Shown here: positions 87-12,505 of the stretch, piece after piece | Layout: each line of letters opens with the position of its first letter | Position numbering within the stretch: the first letter of the stretch is position 1 | From: a bacterium | Lineage (GTDB): Bacteria; Thermosulfidibacterota; Thermosulfidibacteria; Thermosulfidibacterales; JALWSI01 | Assembly: GCA_027080315.1 (NCBI GenBank) | Contig: JALWSI010000107.1 | Location: forward strand, 7,885 to 23,294 | Direction of reading: 5' to 3' | Length of the DNA stretch: 15,410 nt | The notes under the pieces: model-generated | What the model saw: the letters and a program-made list of their open reading frames with translations, nothing else | Databases searched by the model: none | Told to the model about the DNA's origin: nothing | Made by a program: the position numbers and the translations under genes

Positions 87-116
87 AGGACGGGAGGCGT
101 TAACGCCTCCCGTCCT
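87..116. terminator. 30-bp perfect palindrome, probable intergenic terminator or repeat element
   Basis: The left arm AGGACGGGAGGCGTT is followed directly by its exact reverse complement, giving 15 pairs without mismatch around a GTTAAC centre. It lies 16 nt past the stop of the HoxU-like gene. On the plus strand it is followed by ACTTTTC, a short T-run, so it may end transcription arriving from the left. On the minus strand the following bases (TAGTAGC) hold no T-run, so it would be a poor intrinsic terminator for the por operon. GC-rich perfect palindromes like this also occur as dispersed intergenic repeats in many bacterial genomes; one copy cannot separate these options. Confidence 0.55.
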
Positions 117-132
117 ACTTTTCACAGCTAAA

Positions 133-840
133 TCACCGGCAGTCCATACAGAGCTTGGCCTTATCCTCAGGCAGACCCATCTCTTTAAGCCACTCAATCT
201 CCTCTTCTGTGGCAAAGTACTTTCCACACTTCTCACAGGCCACCAGTTTGCTCTTTTTATGCCAGCGTTCCATGATGCGATAGCCATCCTTCTCCTCAAT
301 AGGAATCACATCAACAGGGCAAACATAGGTGCAGGCACCACAGCTTATGCAGAGGGGATTGGGCTCGTCAAAGGGAGGAACTACCCGCCTCTCTGGCCCC
401 CTGCTCTCGTAGCCCAATGCGTGCCTGCCCACCACCTCGCTACACACCCTTACGCAGAGACCACAGAGAATACAGTCCTCGTTCTCCTTCTCAAAACGGG
501 GCTCTTTCACCCCCATCTCTTCCGCCATCTTTTGAATGACAGGTAGGTTGGGACAACGAGAGAGATAGAGCTCCATCAACATCTTGCGAGACTTCTCTAT
601 CTTCTCGTTAGAGGTCTTAACCTCAAGCCCCTCCTCTGCGGGATAGTCGCACGATGTCACAATCTTTGTGCGTTTGCCCTTCTTTATCTCTACCAAACAG
701 AGGCGGCATGCGGTGTAGGGCTTAACCTCGTCGTGGTGACACAGATTGGGGATCTTTATTCCGTATCTCTTTGCCACCTGGAGAATGGTCTCTCCAGGGC
801 GTGATACCACCTTTTTTCCATCTATGGTCAACTCTGCCAT
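133..840 (-). CDS. NuoG/HoxU-like iron-sulfur subunit, short electron-transfer protein
   Basis: A 235-aa soluble electron carrier, similar to the N-terminal part of NuoG and to HoxU. Residues 1-75 form a plant-type [2Fe-2S] domain with C34, C45, C48 and C64. A double [4Fe-4S] ferredoxin domain follows, with C123/C126/C129/C133 and C164/C167/C170/C174. The His-Cys cluster of NuoG, normally between these two domains, is missing: the stretch around residues 90-112 has only C96. A C-terminal pair of CxxC motifs (C202/C205 and C231/C234) could bind zinc or another cluster. There is no molybdopterin or H-cluster domain, so it is not catalytic by itself. It starts 1 nt after the nuoF-like stop, with AAGGTGG upstream of its ATG, and is the last gene of the operon. 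It probably wires the NADH module to the pyruvate oxidoreductase. The family call is firm; the partner is inferred. Confidence 0.85.
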   Translation of the reverse strand: MAELTIDGKKVVSRPGETILQVAKRYGIKIPNLCHHDEVKPYTACRLCLVEIKKGKRTKIVTSCDYPAEEGLEVKTSNEKIEKSRKMLMELYLSRCPNLPVIQKMAEEMGVKEPRFEKENEDCILCGLCVRVCSEVVGRHALGYESRGPERRVVPPFDEPNPLCISCGACTYVCPVDVIPIEEKDGYRIMERWHKKSKLVACEKCGKYFATEEEIEWLKEMGLPEDKAKLCMDCR

Positions 841-841
841 C

Positions 842-2713
842 TTACACCACCTTCACTGCGTCAAATTTACACACATCTTTGCAAATACCGCACTTGATGC
901 ACTTATCCTGGTCAATCTCGTGAGGCTTCTTGGTCTCGCCAGTGATGGCCTCAACAGGACATCTCTTGGCACACACAGTGCAGCCGGTGCACTTCTCTTT
1001 GTCTATCTCGTAGCGCACCAAGGGCTTACACACACCAGCGCGGCACTTCTTGTCTCTAACATGCTCTAAATACTCGTCTTTGAAGTACCTGATGGTGGTG
1101 AGCACGGGGTTGGGGGCAGACTTTCCAAGACCGCAGAGAGAGGCAGTTCCAATGACCTCTCCAAGCTCCTCAAGAAGCTCAATATCCTCTTCTGTGCCGT
1201 TGCCTTCGGTGATTTGGGTTAGAATCTGAAGCATGCGCCTCAGACCCTCACGGCAGGGGGTGCACTTTCCGCAGGACTCCTCGGTGAGAAACTTCACGAA
1301 GTACCGGGCAACATCCACCATACAGGTATTCTCGTCCATAACGATCATGCCGCCAGAGCCCATCATGGAACCGGCCTCGTCAAGGCTGTCAAAGTCAACT
1401 GGCAGATCCAGCAGCGATTCAGGGAGACATCCTCCCGAAGGCCCTCCCGTCTGCACAGCCTTGAACTTCTTGCCGTTGGGAATTCCCCCTCCTATATCAA
1501 AGATCACCTCTCTCAGGGTCATTCCCATGGGAACCTCAACCAGACCGGTATGCTCAACGTCTCCAACCAAAGAGAAGATCTTGGTGCCCTTGCTGTTCTC
1601 GGTTCCCATAGAGGCATACCAAGCTGCTCCCTCCTTCACGATCAGGGGCACATTGGCCCAGGTCTCAACGTTGTTGAGTACCGTGGGTTTACCCCAAAGA
1701 CCGCTCTCGGTGGCATGGATGTGCTTGGACCTCGGCTCTCCAACCCTTCCCTCAATAGAGGCCATCAAGGCAGAGGACTCTCCGCATACGAAGGCTCCAC
1801 CACCCCTGACAATCTTAATGTCAAAGGAGAATCCCGAGCCCAGTATGTTCTCACCTAATAGGCCGTATTCCCTGGCCTGCTCTATGGCCAAGGTGGCGTT
1901 CTCTACAGCCAAGGGATACTCTTTTCGCACATAGATGTATCCCTCTGTAGCTCCAACTGCGTAGGCCCCTATGATCATCCCCTCAACTACGCAATGGGGA
2001 TTTCCTTCCAACAGGCTTCGGTCCATATAGGCCCCGGGGTCGCCTTCGTCGGCGTTGCATATTACGTATTTCGTGGGAACATCATACTTCTTTGCGTCTT
2101 CCCACTTCCACCCTGTGCGGAATCCGGCGCCTCCTCGGCCTCTCAAACCAGACTCGGTAACCTCTTCAATGATCTTGTCTGGCTCCATCTCAAACAGGGC
2201 CTTTGCCAGGGCTGTGTATCCCCCTATGCTGATGTAGTCTTCAATGCTCTTGGGATCTATCTTTCCGTTCATGTCCATAAGGAGTCTCTTCTGCTTGCTG
2301 TAGAAGGGGATCTCCTCCTCGTGGACCACCTTGTTGCCCTGGGAGTCTGTGTAGAGGAGTCGTTCAACAACCTCTCCATTGAGAAGGGTCTTCTCAACGA
2401 TCTCTGGCACATCCTCGGGCTTAACCTTTTGATAAAAGATCTTCTGGGGATAGATCACCACCAAGGTTCCCCTGCCGCAGAAGCCGTGGCATCCAGTGCC
2501 TCTAACAGCATGCCCATCGCCCTTCTCTTTCACCGAGGCATCTATACCCCGCTTCGCAATCTCCTCTTCAAAAGCCTTGTAAACCTCCATGGCACCGTGA
2601 GCCAAACAACCGGTCCCGGTGCAGACGGCAACAAACCTCTCCTCTCCCGAGCGAGAAGCTGCAAGGCTCTTCTGCAACTCAAACAGCTCTTCTTTGCTAT
2701 TTAACCTGCTCAT
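842..2713 (-). CDS. NuoF/HydB/HndC-like NADH-binding flavoprotein with C-terminal ferredoxin domains
   Basis: A 623-aa diaphorase subunit that binds FMN and NAD(H). Domain order: a thioredoxin-like [2Fe-2S] domain (C31, C36, C75, C79); the 51-kDa core with the glycine-rich [13 protein letters not shown] at 189-201 and the flavin-site [13 protein letters not shown] at 220-232; the N3-type [4Fe-4S] motif C481/C484/C487 with C527; then a C-terminal double [4Fe-4S] ferredoxin domain (C575/C578/C581/C585 and C605/C608/C611/C615). H551, C557 and C562 just before it resemble the metal-site region of HydB-type subunits. This layout is that of NADP-reducing or bifurcating hydrogenase subunits (HndC, HydB) rather than plain complex I NuoF, which lacks both extra domains. 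The start overlaps the nuoE-like stop as ATGA. No hydrogenase gene is nearby; pyruvate oxidoreductase genes are instead. Confidence 0.93.
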
Positions 2714-3177
2714 TCTCTGTACTCCTCAATGAGACTGTCCACCTTGGACGGGGTCATGTGGCCGTAGTACTTGTCGTCCACTATCACCAAGGGACCAAGG
2801 GCACAGGCACCAACACAGTTGACGGTCTCCAAAGTGAACTGAAGATCCTTTGTGGTCTTTCCTGCAGGGATACCCAGCACATCAGAGAGACGCTCCAGCA
2901 CCCGATAGGCCCCTTTAACGTGACAAGCGGTTCCTGTGCACACCTGAACCACGTGTTTTCCTCTGGGCAAGAGGCTGAATGCCCTGAAGAAGGTGGCTAT
3001 GTGGTACACCCTGGCCAAGGGAAGCTCCAAGGTGTTAGCCACCTCTTCTAACACCTCTTTTGGCAGGTAAGAGTAGATGTCTTGCAGATCTTGAAGGATC
3101 TCAATCATCCTCGCGCTATTGTAACCGTAGCGCTCAAGCACCTCTTTCACATTCTCTTTAACCTTCTCTACAGCCAT
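2710..3177 (-). CDS. NuoE/HydC/HndA-like [2Fe-2S] subunit
   Basis: A 155-aa subunit of the 24-kDa complex I family. Residues 1-70 form the helical N-terminal part typical of NuoE. The thioredoxin-like half carries the four cluster ligands C80, C85, C121 and C125, in CTGTACH and CVGAC contexts. It normally pairs with the FMN subunit, which here is the next gene with a 4-bp ATGA overlap. It starts 1 nt after the porB stop (TGA-G-ATG), so translation of the NADH module is linked to that of the pyruvate oxidoreductase. That is the best sequence evidence that the two modules are made together. Full length, with no missing ligands. Confidence 0.94.
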
Positions 3178-3178
3178 C

Positions 3179-4147
3179 TCATAACTCCTGTGTAAGCCTC
3201 TCCATCTTTTTGAGGCGCTCGTACTCTCTGGTAACCATCTCTTGAAACTCGTCTATCACCTCTTGTGGAAGGTGACGGAAACGCCGCTGGCCTTTGAGAT
3301 AGTCCGTAACAGGCCTCAAACCCTGTGGAAGATCAAGGGAAAGCCTGTACTTTCCATGGTCCACCTCGTACAAGGGGAAGACCCCCGTCTCTGCAGCCAA
3401 TCTGCCCAACCTCACCGAATAGGCAGGATCGGTTCCCCAACCAGTGGGGCATACCGCAAACATGTGAATATAGGCAGGTCCCTCTATCTCAGTGGCACGT
3501 TTCACCTTACGAATCAGGTCTAAAGGATAGCTTGGACAGGCTGTGGCAACGTAGTCTGCCTTGTGAGCCACAGCAATCTCTGCAAGGTTCTTCTTCCAGT
3601 AACCCTGCCCAAAACTCACCTTTCCAGCAGGAGTGGTGGTGGTGCTTGCACCCAGGGGAGTTGCCGATGAGCCCTGAACACCGGTGTTCATATAGGCCTC
3701 GTTGTCGTAGCAGATGTAGGTGAAATTATGACGGCGAATAAGAGCTCCAGACAACGCTTGAAGTCCGATGTCGGCGGTTCCTCCGTCACCTCCCAAGGCA
3801 ATCACCTTGATCTTCTTTGAGGGGTCCAACCTTCCCTTTCTCTGCAAGGCCTTAACCGCAGCCTCCACTCCCGAGGCCACAGCGGCAGCGTTCTCAAAGG
3901 CCACGTGCAACCAGGGTAGCGCCCATGAGGTGAATGGGTACGGAGACGAGACTATCTCCATACATCCAGTTGCGTTTATCACTATGGTGTCTTTATCAAC
4001 TGCCTTGAAGATATGGCGCAGCCCCAGAGCAGCTGCACAGCCCTGACACGCTCTGTGTCCTCTGGTGAAGAACTCCTCTTTCTCCACCAAACGGTACGCA
4101 AAAACATTCAAGGCGCTCTCTATTGGTCTCTTCACTTCTGCACTCAT
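3179..4147 (-). CDS. porB: Pyruvate (2-oxoacid):ferredoxin oxidoreductase, beta subunit
   Basis: A 322-aa TPP-binding subunit. C34, C37, C62 and C233 are the four ligands of the [4Fe-4S] cluster next to the thiamine. GGDGGTADIG at about 119-128, followed by YDNEAYMNTG (N149), is the TPP/magnesium-binding motif. SSPYPFTSW at 67-75 is typical of the pyruvate-type beta subunit. Together with the other three subunits it catalyses CoA-dependent oxidative decarboxylation of pyruvate to acetyl-CoA and CO2, or the reverse. Its start overlaps the porA stop as ATGA. Pyruvate is the most likely substrate, but a related 2-oxoacid cannot be excluded from sequence alone. Confidence 0.94.
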   Translation of the reverse strand: MSAEVKRPIESALNVFAYRLVEKEEFFTRGHRACQGCAAALGLRHIFKAVDKDTIVINATGCMEIVSSPYPFTSWALPWLHVAFENAAAVASGVEAAVKALQRKGRLDPSKKIKVIALGGDGGTADIGLQALSGALIRRHNFTYICYDNEAYMNTGVQGSSATPLGASTTTTPAGKVSFGQGYWKKNLAEIAVAHKADYVATACPSYPLDLIRKVKRATEIEGPAYIHMFAVCPTGWGTDPAYSVRLGRLAAETGVFPLYEVDHGKYRLSLDLPQGLRPVTDYLKGQRRFRHLPQEVIDEFQEMVTREYERLKKMERLTQEL

Positions 4148-5322
4148 TCTCTCAACCCCACTATCTTCACAATCTCTGGCTCTTTGCCCGTCTTAAGGAA
4201 GTTCTCGCCGATCTCAAACATCTCTATGTAGTTCTCAAGGGAGATATCGCGACCACCCAGGCCAGCCACACACCCCACAACCATGGGACGTTTGGGCTCA
4301 TGGTAAAGGGCTGAGCGCACCTCAGACAAGACCGGTCCGGCCTGGCCTCCAAATGAGATACACCTGTCTAACACCACAACGCATTTGGCGTTAACCAAGG
4401 CATCAATGAGGTCCTGAAATGGGAAGGGTCTCCACAGGCGAAGCTCCACTATTCCCACCTTCTTGCCCTGCTCCCTAAGGGCATCAACGGCAACCTCTGC
4501 CGCCTCTGTCACCGAACCCTGAGTGAGAAGAATGATATCGGCATCGTCGCTCTTATAGTGCTCAATAGGATTGTATTTGCGGCCAAAGTTCTCGCCAAAC
4601 TCTTTGAGAACCTCATCAATCACCTTGCGAGAGTTTCTTATGGCAACGTCCTGCTGCTTTTTGGCCTCTGTGTAAACATCGGGAAGCCCCACGGGACCCA
4701 AGGTCATGGGGTTGTCGGTATCCAGCTTGTACTTGTACTCAAATGGAGGAAGATAGCCTTCCAACTCTTCGTCCTCAAACATGTAAAGGGGCTCGATCAC
4801 GTGGGTAAGAATAAATCCGTCAAAGTTCACCATAACCGGCAGCAGCACATCGGGATGCTCTCCTATCTTGAATGCCATGAGGGTGAGATCGTAGGCCTCC
4901 TGCCCGTTGTTGGCAAAGATTGAGATCCATCCTGTATCCCTCTGTCCCATAACATCGCTGTGATCGTTCCAAATGCTTATGGGTCCAGAAAGTGCCCGGT
5001 TTGCCAAGGCCATAACCACAGGAGTTCTTAAGCTGGGAGCCAGGTACAGAATCTCGTGCATCAAGGCCAGTCCCTGAGAACTGGTTGAGGTGAACACCCT
5101 GGCACCGGCTGCGGCGGCTCCCACACAGGCGCTCATGGCGGTGTGCTCTGATTCAACGGTTATGTATTCTGCATCCAGCTCACCATCGGCCACCAAGGAG
5201 GCAAGATGCTCCACAATGTGCGTCTGTGGAGTGATGGGATAGGCAGAAACCACATCAACATTGGCCTGCCTTGCCGCCTCGGCAATGGCTATAGAGACCT
5301 CCATTCCTACTCTTTTTGCCAT
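4144..5322 (-). CDS. porA: Pyruvate (2-oxoacid):ferredoxin oxidoreductase, alpha subunit
   Basis: A 392-aa alpha subunit supplying the pyrimidine side of the TPP site and the 2-oxoacid pocket. YPITPQT at 28-34, VESEHTA at 56-62, and NRALSGPISIW at 108-118 followed by NDHSDVMGQRDTGW are hallmark blocks of PorA. The C-terminal half (from about 265) is the transketolase C-terminal-like domain. An in-frame ATG 45 nt upstream would add 15 residues. The start at 5322 is preferred because family members begin near MAKRVGMEVS, GAGGTGAAAG sits just upstream, and the ATG overlaps the porD stop as TAATG. The stop overlaps porB. Confidence 0.94.
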   Translation of the reverse strand: MAKRVGMEVSIAIAEAARQANVDVVSAYPITPQTHIVEHLASLVADGELDAEYITVESEHTAMSACVGAAAAGARVFTSTSSQGLALMHEILYLAPSLRTPVVMALANRALSGPISIWNDHSDVMGQRDTGWISIFANNGQEAYDLTLMAFKIGEHPDVLLPVMVNFDGFILTHVIEPLYMFEDEELEGYLPPFEYKYKLDTDNPMTLGPVGLPDVYTEAKKQQDVAIRNSRKVIDEVLKEFGENFGRKYNPIEHYKSDDADIILLTQGSVTEAAEVAVDALREQGKKVGIVELRLWRPFPFQDLIDALVNAKCVVVLDRCISFGGQAGPVLSEVRSALYHEPKRPMVVGCVAGLGGRDISLENYIEMFEIGENFLKTGKEPEIVKIVGLRE

Positions 5323-5612
5323 TATTCTTTCACCTCTTCTTCCATTGTTATGCAGGAGGCAGGACACTCAACAGCGCATATTCCACATCCCTTGCAATAG
5401 TCGTAGTTGGGATTGAAATAGCCATACTCATCTTTCTCATAGGCGTATTCAGGGCAGAAGATGTAGCAAGTGCCGCACTTTATGCACCTCTTCTTATCCA
5501 CCACAGGGGCAAGGGTCTTCCAATCCCCTGTCTTGTACTCAACACTGTTGCCTGGCTCTGGAATGATGCAGGCAAAGGTTAGCTCTGTCCATTTAGGCTT
5601 AGGATTCATCAT
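5322..5612 (-). CDS. porD: Pyruvate (2-oxoacid):ferredoxin oxidoreductase, delta (ferredoxin) subunit
   Basis: A 96-aa 8Fe-8S ferredoxin-like subunit that carries electrons out of the TPP site. The clusters are bound by C43/C46/C49/C53 and C73/C76/C79/C83; each fourth cysteine is followed by proline, and C87 is an extra cysteine. The roughly 35-residue N-terminal extension before the first cluster is usual for PorD. The first ATG overlaps the porC stop as ATGA; a second ATG follows immediately, so the protein may be one residue shorter. This is the probable docking point for the downstream NuoG/HoxU-like carrier or for free ferredoxin (inference). Confidence 0.93.
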   Translation of the reverse strand: MMNPKPKWTELTFACIIPEPGNSVEYKTGDWKTLAPVVDKKRCIKCGTCYIFCPEYAYEKDEYGYFNPNYDYCKGCGICAVECPASCITMEEEVKE

Positions 5613-6157
5613 TGTGCAACCCTCGCTTCGTCATAGGCCCTCCTAAAGGCCTTTATCTCCTTTTCGGCTATCCTTGCGAATCGCTCGGCGATGAACTTTT
5701 CAAGAACCTCAAGCTCCACCAGCTTATCCGCTTTGAGCAGGGTGGCCAGCATAACCACATTGGTTATGGGAACCCCCAGCTCCTCCATGGCGATGTTGGT
5801 TGCGTCCACAGCCACAACAGATCCCTTGACGTTCAGCTTCTCTTTCACCTCAGCGGGATCATGTTTGGTGTTTATGGCCAAAATACCGCCTTCCTTCATT
5901 CCCTCGGTCACAGGCACCGAACCCAGCAAAGTTGGATCCAGAACCACCACCATGTCAGGATGATACACCCCTGTTCGTGTCTTAATTGGAGTGTCAGATA
6001 TTCGGGTGAATGCCTGAACCGGGGCTCCTCTTCTCTCGGCGCCAAAGGAGGGAAACGCTTGAGCGTATTTACCCTCTTCAATGGCAGCCAGGGCCAAGAG
6101 CTCTGCAGAAGTGACAGCGCCCTGTCCCCCGCGTCCGTGAAACCGCAGTTCTACCAA
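5609..6157 (-). CDS. porC: Pyruvate (2-oxoacid):ferredoxin oxidoreductase, gamma subunit (TTG start)
   Basis: A 182-aa gamma subunit, first gene of the seven-gene operon. GRGGQGAVT at 8-16 and FPSFGAERRGAPV at 35-47 are the family motifs; this domain helps bind CoA in the four-subunit enzymes. The start codon is TTG. The frame continues upstream without a better start, and AAGGAGGT lies 9 nt before the TTG, so the choice is well supported. The length is normal for PorC/PorG. The 169-bp gap to waaA upstream is the only sizeable gap here and is the expected place for the operon promoter. Confidence 0.93.
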   Translation of the reverse strand: MVELRFHGRGGQGAVTSAELLALAAIEEGKYAQAFPSFGAERRGAPVQAFTRISDTPIKTRTGVYHPDMVVVLDPTLLGSVPVTEGMKEGGILAINTKHDPAEVKEKLNVKGSVVAVDATNIAMEELGVPITNVVMLATLLKADKLVELEVLEKFIAERFARIAEKEIKAFRRAYDEARVAQ

Positions 6158-6166
6158 GAGACCTTT

Positions 6167-6174
6167 ACCTCCTT
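6167..6174 (-). promoter_or_regulatory. Strong ribosome binding site deciding the TTG start of porC
   Basis: On the minus strand AAGGAGGT matches the 16S rRNA tail over eight bases and lies 9 nt before the TTG. This near-ideal site offsets the weak start codon, and no ATG or GTG is similarly placed. Confidence 0.75.
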
Positions 6175-6217
6175 TTTATATGGATTGCTCCTCTTTTGAA
6201 CCCTTCCTATTCTCTCT

Positions 6218-6246
6218 CAATACTCGCCTTTAACCCTTAGCGTCAA
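6218..6246 (-). promoter_or_regulatory. Candidate sigma-70-type promoter for the por operon
   Basis: On the minus strand TTGACG (6246-6241) matches the -35 consensus in five of six positions. A 17-nt spacer leads to GTATTG (or TATTGA with 18 nt), which is a weak -10. Transcription would begin about 55 nt before the porC start. There is no clear terminator behind waaA, so readthrough from the yebC-waaA operon is also possible. Confidence 0.35.
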
Positions 6247-6326
6247 GTGCTATGCCTGCTATCCTCTCACTAAAACCTCTAAATTTGAAACATAAAAAGG
6301 CTCTTATTAAACCAAGAAAAGGATCC

Positions 6327-7622: not shown

Positions 7623-8007
7623 ACAGCTCCATTAAGACTCCACCTGTGGACTTGGGGTGTAAAAAGGCAATTCTGGTACCATGGGCCCCTGCCCTTGGCT
7701 TTTTGTCAATGAGCTTGAGTCCCTCTGCCTCGGCCCTTTTCAAGGCCTCTTCAATGTTGTCCACCTGAAAGGCTATGTGGTGAATCCCCTCGCCTTTCTT
7801 CTCAATGAACTTGGCCACTGGAGAGTCGGGAGAGGTGGGCTCTAAAAGCTCTATGCGGCTCTCCCCAACGGTGAGAAAGACCACCTTCACCTTCTGCTCC
7901 TCAACCACCTCTTCTCCCTCAGGTTGAAGCCCCAAGGCCCTGTAGGGAACAATGCCCGACTCTATGCTCTTCACTGCAATGCCTATATGGTTGATCTTTT
8001 TAAGCAT
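7603..8007 (-). CDS. mce: Methylmalonyl-CoA epimerase
   Basis: A 134-aa glyoxalase/VOC-fold enzyme that interconverts (2R)- and (2S)-methylmalonyl-CoA, linking propionyl-CoA and succinyl-CoA. Two babab modules are visible, starting at NHIGIAVKS (6-14) and HHIAFQVDN (76-84). Expected metal ligands are H7, H76/H77 and E127 in [32 protein letters not shown]-type C-terminal residues (about 105-128, here beginning [12 protein letters not shown]) distinguish it from general glyoxalases. It overlaps ruvB by 8 bp and waaA by 20 bp. Its setting between DNA-repair and LPS genes is unusual, since mce commonly sits with the mutase genes. It implies a propionate or succinate route elsewhere in the genome. 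Confidence 0.9.
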
Positions 8008-11923: not shown

Positions 11924-12505
11924 TCACTTGGAAGAGCTCTTTGTCTTGGAATGCGGTTTCTCCTCCTTTTTTGGATAAACCGCCTTAACCTCACCAGAAA
12001 CGGTGTCTATAACAACCTGCCAAAGGGGATTCTTCTTTTTGGAGTCCCAGCAGAGTATTAAAGCTTCGGGATCGTCCCAGTCCATCTTGTATATGATTCT
12101 CTTAGAGCAGCTCTTACCCGTAGCCTTTTTCACCTTCTCAAGCACCTGGGGAGAGTCCATCATCCTGTTGTAAGGCAGGGTGGGTTTACAGGCCTTGGTC
12201 TCAAGAGAGCGGGGTGGATTCAACTTGCTGCCATTAGAAAGCATGTAGTAAGTCCTGTTTTGAGATGGGGAACAGCCTGTTATGAGAAACCTTTTGGTGG
12301 TTCCATTGGCCTTCATGTCCTGAGAATCAAAAGACATGTAAACAAGATCAGGTATCTTCACCCGCTCCTTCAGAAGATTATAGGTGCCTTTAAGGGTCAA
12401 AGAAGGTGCGGGCTTCTGGGCCATCCTGTTAACCACCACCAGATAGAGAAAGAAAAGAGCCAACATCACAAAGGACGAAGTGAGAATCCTATGCTTCAAG
12501 TTCAT
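11924..12505 (-). CDS. Membrane-anchored protein of unknown function, possible PepSY-like fold
   Basis: A 193-aa protein not recognised as a named family. Residues 1-7 are basic and 10-26 are a hydrophobic helix, so it is anchored in the inner membrane with the rest probably in the periplasm. Four cysteines (C78, C106, C133, C152) could form two disulfides. The segment WQVVIDTVSGEVKAVYP (162-178) resembles the closing strand of PepSY-type domains (hydrophobic-D-x-x-x-G-x-hydrophobic); this is a weak resemblance. The last 15 residues are lysine- and serine-rich. AAGGAG precedes the ATG. It appears to be its own transcription unit, bounded by terminators on both sides. Confidence 0.75.
   Translation of the reverse strand: MNLKHRILTSSFVMLALFFLYLVVVNRMAQKPAPSLTLKGTYNLLKERVKIPDLVYMSFDSQDMKANGTTKRFLITGCSPSQNRTYYMLSNGSKLNPPRSLETKACKPTLPYNRMMDSPQVLEKVKKATGKSCSKRIIYKMDWDDPEALILCWDSKKKNPLWQVVIDTVSGEVKAVYPKKEEKPHSKTKSSSK

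Follow-up and report, generated by a model that had tools for sequence, protein, structure and literature searches.

Why would a bacterium couple a substrate that can itself reduce ferredoxin (about -500 mV) to an electron-bifurcating module? Schut et al. (2022; PMC9304861, cited here throughout from excerpts) posed this question for "Por-Bfu", an enzyme that they named and predicted from genomes, with a seven-subunit (A-G) composition. The locus described here bears on it. In a 15,410-nt stretch of a bacterial contig of the phylum Thermosulfidibacterota (the window; positions 7,885 to 23,294 of JALWSI010000107.1, assembly GCA_027080315.1), open reading frames (ORFs) and their translations define a seven-gene operon on the minus strand, running from 6157 to 133 in the order porC-porD-porA-porB-bfuC(nuoE)-bfuB(nuoF)-bfuA(short nuoG/hoxU). 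We put the probability at about two in three (0.66) that these genes encode one soluble bifurcating Por-Bfu complex, which would convert pyruvate to acetyl-CoA while reducing both NAD+ and ferredoxin, the same function that was proposed by Schut et al. (2022). The idea of a pyruvate:ferredoxin oxidoreductase (POR) joined to a Bfu module is already in print. New relative to the 12 published Por-Bfu sequences, which come mainly from Chloroflexi and syntrophic Proteobacteria, are a wider conservation of gene order, a Bfu-linked clade of PorAB, and BfuB partners that do not form one clade. Por-Bfu is a predicted, uncharacterised bifurcating enzyme; we found no experimental paper on it in PubMed Central, where the name is used only in the 2022 prediction.

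Composition of the two halves

Each of the seven gene families was confirmed by Pfam or NCBIfam profile matches. A preliminary description of this DNA had read porC-D-A-B as followed by NuoE-, NuoF- and HoxU-like genes with 1-4 bp overlaps or 1-bp gaps, and the ORF coordinates agree: from porC to bfuA, the junctions are a 4-bp overlap, a 1-bp overlap, a 4-bp overlap, a 1-bp gap, a 4-bp overlap and a 1-bp gap. Its proposal that a pyruvate oxidoreductase takes the place of the hydrogenase or formate dehydrogenase of other Bfu-type modules is likewise well supported by the cofactor motifs, the gene order and the phylogeny given below.

The catalytic half resembles a four-subunit POR throughout. 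PorC matches Pfam POR (PF01558; 4.7e-42) and scores above the cut-off of NCBIfam PRK08534/PorC, PorD is above that of TIGR02179 (PorD_KorD), PorA contains POR_N (4.9e-74) and PFOR_II, and PorB contains the Pfam TPP_enzyme_C domain. The best solved relative of all four subunits is the four-subunit POR 9bt4 (9bt4_E for PorC, 9bt4_G for PorD, 9bt4_B for PorA and 9bt4_C for PorB), which outscores oxalate oxidoreductase where both match, by a wide margin for PorA (1.2e-103). Unlike the window operon, the matched 9bt4 chains have no BfuABC partner, and sampled stand-alone PORs group apart from Bfu-linked ones. The top NCBIfam models for PorA and PorB are both pyruvate synthase, each just below its cut-off; for PorB, the pyruvate synthase model gives 399 bits (cut-off 405) and the 3-methyl-2-oxobutanoate model 331.

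Family searches of the genome, in which absences are provisional because this metagenome-assembled genome is 94% complete in 253 contigs, found no other clearly pyruvate-class POR, no pyruvate dehydrogenase (PDH) E1, pyruvate formate-lyase (PFL) or domain of an [FeFe]-hydrogenase, and nothing that passed the cut-off for RnfC. Matches to the NiFe large subunit were weak and below cut-off, and two weak matches to PF00676 (PDH E1) lay in frames of 640-669 codons that were read as transketolase or 1-deoxy-D-xylulose-5-phosphate synthase. In view of the missing PDH, PFL, [FeFe]-hydrogenase and Rnf, and with no further POR of clear pyruvate class, the window enzyme looks like the main gateway between pyruvate and acetyl-CoA, and the genome is a clean case for the question posed above. 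A second PorA-PorB pair (G000:C190; L158:6090-8116), whose beta subunit is nearer to branched-chain 2-oxoacid oxidoreductase (VOR), has no adjoining gamma or delta gene; searches of the genome revealed no gamma gene of POR class besides the window porC. This second pair may borrow PorC and PorD from the window operon or act as a two-subunit enzyme. PorA-PorB pairs with neither a gamma nor a delta gene beside them likewise occur in L165, L166 and L170.

The other half contains the BfuBC core which, with flavin mononucleotide (FMN) and six clusters, defines the Bfu family (PMC9304861). BfuC matches Pfam 2Fe-2S_thioredx (7.6e-52), and its best matches in the Protein Data Bank are the HydC subunits of the bifurcating hydrogenases 8a6t, 7t2r and 7p5h. 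BfuB carries the Pfam domains Complex1_51K, SLBB, NADH_4Fe-4S, Fer4 and 2Fe-2S_thioredx, and its closest solved chains (9mqx_B, 7t2r_B and 8a6t_B) all belong to bifurcating enzymes. The two proteins together show the domain set of the family, namely FMN/NADH, NADH_4Fe-4S and C-terminal ferredoxin domains, with a thioredoxin-like [2Fe-2S] domain in BfuC. In BfuB, the B2 ligands C464/T502/H551/C557/C562 align with C438/C476/H525/C531/C536 of 7t2r_B, and the His and three other Cys positions are kept in all 28 Por-linked BfuB rows. The B1 cysteines and all eight cysteines of the C-terminal ferredoxin domain (B3/B4) are also present. On its own, the B2 His does not identify a bifurcating enzyme, because the NuoF-like protein of the same genome (L002:1081-2346; G000:C200), which lacks the C-terminal ferredoxin domain, keeps the His and the first Cys of this motif (DEYLEHIKNKRC). 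The N-terminal B5 cluster, which is described in the literature as absolutely conserved, has its ligands C31, C36, C75 and C79 in the window BfuB. The B5 cysteines are mostly missing from the Por-linked BfuB of three close relatives with the same gene order (L039:7832-9670, L042:7150-8988 and L043:7610-9448), and likewise in L069 and L062; such relatives constitute a natural test of the FMN/[2Fe-2S] bifurcation mechanism and of which clusters bifurcation needs.

BfuA is predicted to bind A1 [2Fe-2S] through C34/45/48/64, A2 [4Fe-4S] through C123/126/129/133 and A4 [4Fe-4S] through C164/167/170/174, as read from its cysteine pattern, in which the His-Cys (A5) motif and a further ferredoxin domain are absent, leaving A1, A2 and A4 without A3 or A5. 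A C-terminal Cys4 site (C202/C205/C231/C234) is conserved in at least 90% of aligned relatives and is common to the BfuA of Wor-Bfu. The NADH-linked trio of the preliminary description stands, with one shift of emphasis: its third gene encodes this short BfuA and not a full NuoG. An AlphaFold2 monomer model of BfuA (predicted local distance difference test score 94) aligns with 9mqx_A across residues 1-235, the Cys4 site included (Z 25.1, root-mean-square deviation 2.6, 229 aligned residues, 36% identity). Since BfuA itself lacks a catalytic domain, it needs an external partner, and Type 2 BfuA proteins, with A1, A2 and A4 only, depend on extra subunits for their substrate (PMC9304861).

Three characterised or proposed systems frame these matches. 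Wor-Bfu (9mqx, an electron-bifurcating tungsten aldehyde oxidoreductase) is the best solved match for both BfuA and BfuB, and BfuC matches it too, whereas catalysis in Wor-Bfu falls to a tungstopterin aldehyde oxidoreductase in place of the pyruvate oxidoreductase of the window. The HydABC and NiFe-HydABCSL hydrogenases (7t2r, 8a6t, 7p5h and 7q4v) resemble the window enzyme in the cores of BfuB and BfuC, where clusters and FMN are the same, but have a hydrogenase catalytic part, for which no [FeFe] domain was found in the window's genome, and a longer BfuA with more clusters. Por-Bfu as published, for example in Dehalococcoides mccartyi 195, has the same four Por subunits and BfuABC in one operon, a catalytic part that uses thiamine pyrophosphate (TPP), and a BfuA without A3 or A5 (PMC9304861); the window differs in coming from a different phylum, which is small. 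Chloroflexota relatives stood in for the D. mccartyi sequence in this comparison.

Gene order and phylogeny

Relatives were sampled from genomes of the window's phylum and from 84,980 named species, which were scanned and yielded 80 loci. BfuA is present in 8 of the 9 sampled genomes of the phylum, the window's own included, at about 62-64% identity to the window protein, and every complete contig of the phylum contains the canonical seven genes. Where six or more of the genes were detected in a cluster, the order is canonical in 25 of 26 cases, in Chloroflexota, Thermodesulfobacteriota, Myxococcota, Bacillota and other lineages; the one cluster that departs from it (L074) lies on a truncated contig that carries two por clusters. 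The porCDAB-nuoEF-hoxU order, whose conservation the preliminary description had proposed as a check, is kept across several phyla, well beyond what chance would give.

In a tree of PorA+PorB (52 rows), 29 Bfu-linked pairs, two pairs of unknown linkage and one from a truncated contig form a single branch (Shimodaira-Hasegawa-like approximate likelihood ratio test [SH-aLRT] 98), and the 20 true stand-alone pairs fall in two groups outside it. Hidden Markov model scores of PorB occupy separate ranges, at least 449 bits for Bfu-linked and at most 390 bits for stand-alone proteins. L062, L068 and L167 are truncated contigs; the linkage of L062 and L068 was set before the approximately unbiased (AU) test described below, and L167 was counted as Bfu-linked because bfuC comes next at the same place in L140. 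One por cluster inside the Bfu-linked clade (L196, G104:C6, 3-2943) has unrelated genes downstream, which is probably the result of a loss of the Bfu genes.

A single clade of Por-linked BfuB was rejected by the AU test (p-AU 0.010). This leaves two histories, an exchange of the Bfu half or an origin of other Bfu enzymes from Por-linked ones. We treat this result as a lead, because the BfuB tree was built by a quick search and is weak at its deep nodes, and because the tested group was named before the AU test but after the first tree. A tentative picture, possible but short of probable, is that the whole small phylum relies on an obligately bifurcating POR and not on a free ferredoxin-linked POR, and that one old lineage of POR has retained the NADH-bifurcation module as its partner, with BfuB exchanged or donated between lineages and B5 lost in some close relatives.

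Other partners of the Bfu genes were observed in the same sample. In three unrelated bacteria, genes for another kind of 2-oxoacid oxidoreductase, with a VorB-type alpha subunit (above its NCBIfam cut-off) and a short beta subunit, lie directly upstream of bfuCBA (L053:7277-13104, L136:1320-7113 and L110:4230-9747 [L101 near-identical]). The BfuB proteins of these "Vor-Bfu" loci cluster together (SH-aLRT 92), a DmsB-like ferredoxin gene follows bfuA in at least one of them, and the excerpts of PMC9304861 do not name Vor-Bfu in their list of functions. At L052:6466-10807 (G049), bfuCBA is in line with porD and with a gene that is PorB-like but divergent, and porA was not detected, possibly indicating a different TPP enzyme as partner. 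Two bfu gene sets lie side by side at L084:3092-10577 (Aminicenantes), where one BfuB has 1,038 aa and two bfuA genes follow, and two sets are also adjacent at L118:4589-12006. In Thermotoga maritima, TM0010-TM0012 may lie close to por genes.

Proposed function and rival readings

Homology to solved or assayed Wor-, NiFe- and FeFe-Bfu enzymes makes it most likely that the seven products form one physical complex with a continuous electron path and bifurcation. PorABCD would convert pyruvate and CoA to acetyl-CoA and CO2 on TPP, or catalyse the reverse. Electrons would leave through the [4Fe-4S] clusters of PorB and PorD, enter BfuA (A4, A2, A1) and pass to the BfuBC core (B1, FMN, C1, B5), where coupled bifurcation would reduce NAD+ at FMN and ferredoxin via B2, B3 and B4. 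Several points weigh against this reading. Pyruvate oxidation (about -500 mV) is able to reduce NAD+ without bifurcation. The Bfu module is not invariant, since three close relatives lack most of the B5 cysteines, and the POR half may work alone, since the G104 POR of the Bfu-linked clade precedes unrelated genes. Finally, positions that distinguish Bfu-linked from stand-alone PORs number 11 in PorA, 7 in PorB and only 1 in PorD, too few to identify a docking surface between Por and Bfu. In favour of one enzyme, the Por-Bfu proposal cites transcript data from D. mccartyi (PMC9304861).

The same complex might instead run as a confurcating pyruvate synthase, in which NADH and reduced ferredoxin drive acetyl-CoA and CO2 to pyruvate for biosynthesis. 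This alternative differs in direction alone and does not conflict with a bifurcating Por-Bfu complex; we consider it a real possibility, at somewhat less than even odds. Schut et al. proposed this direction for organohalide-respiring Chloroflexi (including Dehalococcoides) and syntrophs (PMC9304861), and the window genome has, judged by eye from sequence, 2-oxoglutarate oxidoreductase-type enzymes together with succinyl-CoA synthetase-like and succinate dehydrogenase/fumarate reductase-like genes. However, a reduction near -500 mV would leave the NADH half of the electrons too weak unless substrate ratios were very favourable, and sequence cannot reveal direction. In energetic terms, the oxidation is easy.

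It is unlikely that the operon encodes a non-bifurcating pyruvate:NAD+ oxidoreductase, in which NAD+ would be the sole acceptor of the electrons that Por sends through BfuA and FMN, with the C-terminal ferredoxin domain of BfuB vestigial or a side entry. Curated NAD+-linked 2-oxoacid oxidoreductases do exist in this superfamily, as models of NADH-dependent phenylglyoxylate dehydrogenase match the Por subunits, and the B5-less relatives are consistent with such an enzyme. By contrast, 27-28 of 28 Por-linked BfuB retain the B2 His/Cys ligands and all eight cysteines of the C-terminal ferredoxin domain, and Wor-Bfu, a Type 2 relative whose substrate is of similarly low potential, reduced neither NAD+ nor ferredoxin in assays that lacked the other acceptor (PMC9304861). 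Less likely still are two separate enzymes from one operon, a POR reducing free ferredoxin and a BfuABC exchanging electrons between ferredoxin and NAD(H), a reading that the G104 cluster and the failure of the clade-specific residues to reveal a contact surface would fit, but that is at odds with a BfuA of the Type 2 form, which lacks a substrate domain and uses extra subunits, and with the distinct clade of Bfu-linked PORs and the gene order conserved across phyla.

Operon borders and neighbouring genes

The inverted repeat just beyond bfuA is a probable terminator, on the far side of which lies a gene convergent to bfuA. The gap upstream of porC is likely the promoter region, in which a consensus promoter was not detected. 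For porA, an in-frame GTG at 5367 is an alternative start that would lengthen the overlap with porD.

Table 1. Coordinates of the Por-Bfu operon and its borders in the window
Feature	Position	Strand	Description
porC	5609-6157	-	182 aa, TTG start; gamma subunit of pyruvate:acceptor oxidoreductase
porD	5322-5612	-	96 aa; delta subunit, two [4Fe-4S]
porA	4144-5322	-	392 aa from ATG at 5322; alpha subunit, TPP-binding N domain and PFOR_II domain
porB	3179-4147	-	322 aa; beta subunit, TPP and proximal [4Fe-4S]
bfuC (NuoE/HydC-like)	2710-3177	-	155 aa; cluster C1 [2Fe-2S]
bfuB (NuoF/HydB-like)	842-2713	-	623 aa; B5 [2Fe-2S], FMN/NADH domain, B1 [4Fe-4S], B2 [2Fe-2S], B3/B4 2x[4Fe-4S]
bfuA (HoxU/short NuoG-like, Type 2)	133-840	-	235 aa; A1, A2, A4 and C-terminal Cys4 site
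Inverted repeat, perfect 15+15 nt	87-116		just 3' of bfuA, between convergent genes
Intergenic gap, 169 bp	6158-6326		upstream of porC
waaA	6327-7622	-	adjoins the 169-bp gap upstream of porC

House-keeping genes flank the operon upstream: waaA, a glyoxalase-family gene resembling methylmalonyl-CoA epimerase, ruvBAC and yebC. An Rfam search of the window gave zero matches. Elsewhere in the window, a 193-aa minus-strand ORF without a Pfam match (11924-12505) adjoins genes for an SDH-type serine protease and a sodium:solute symporter.

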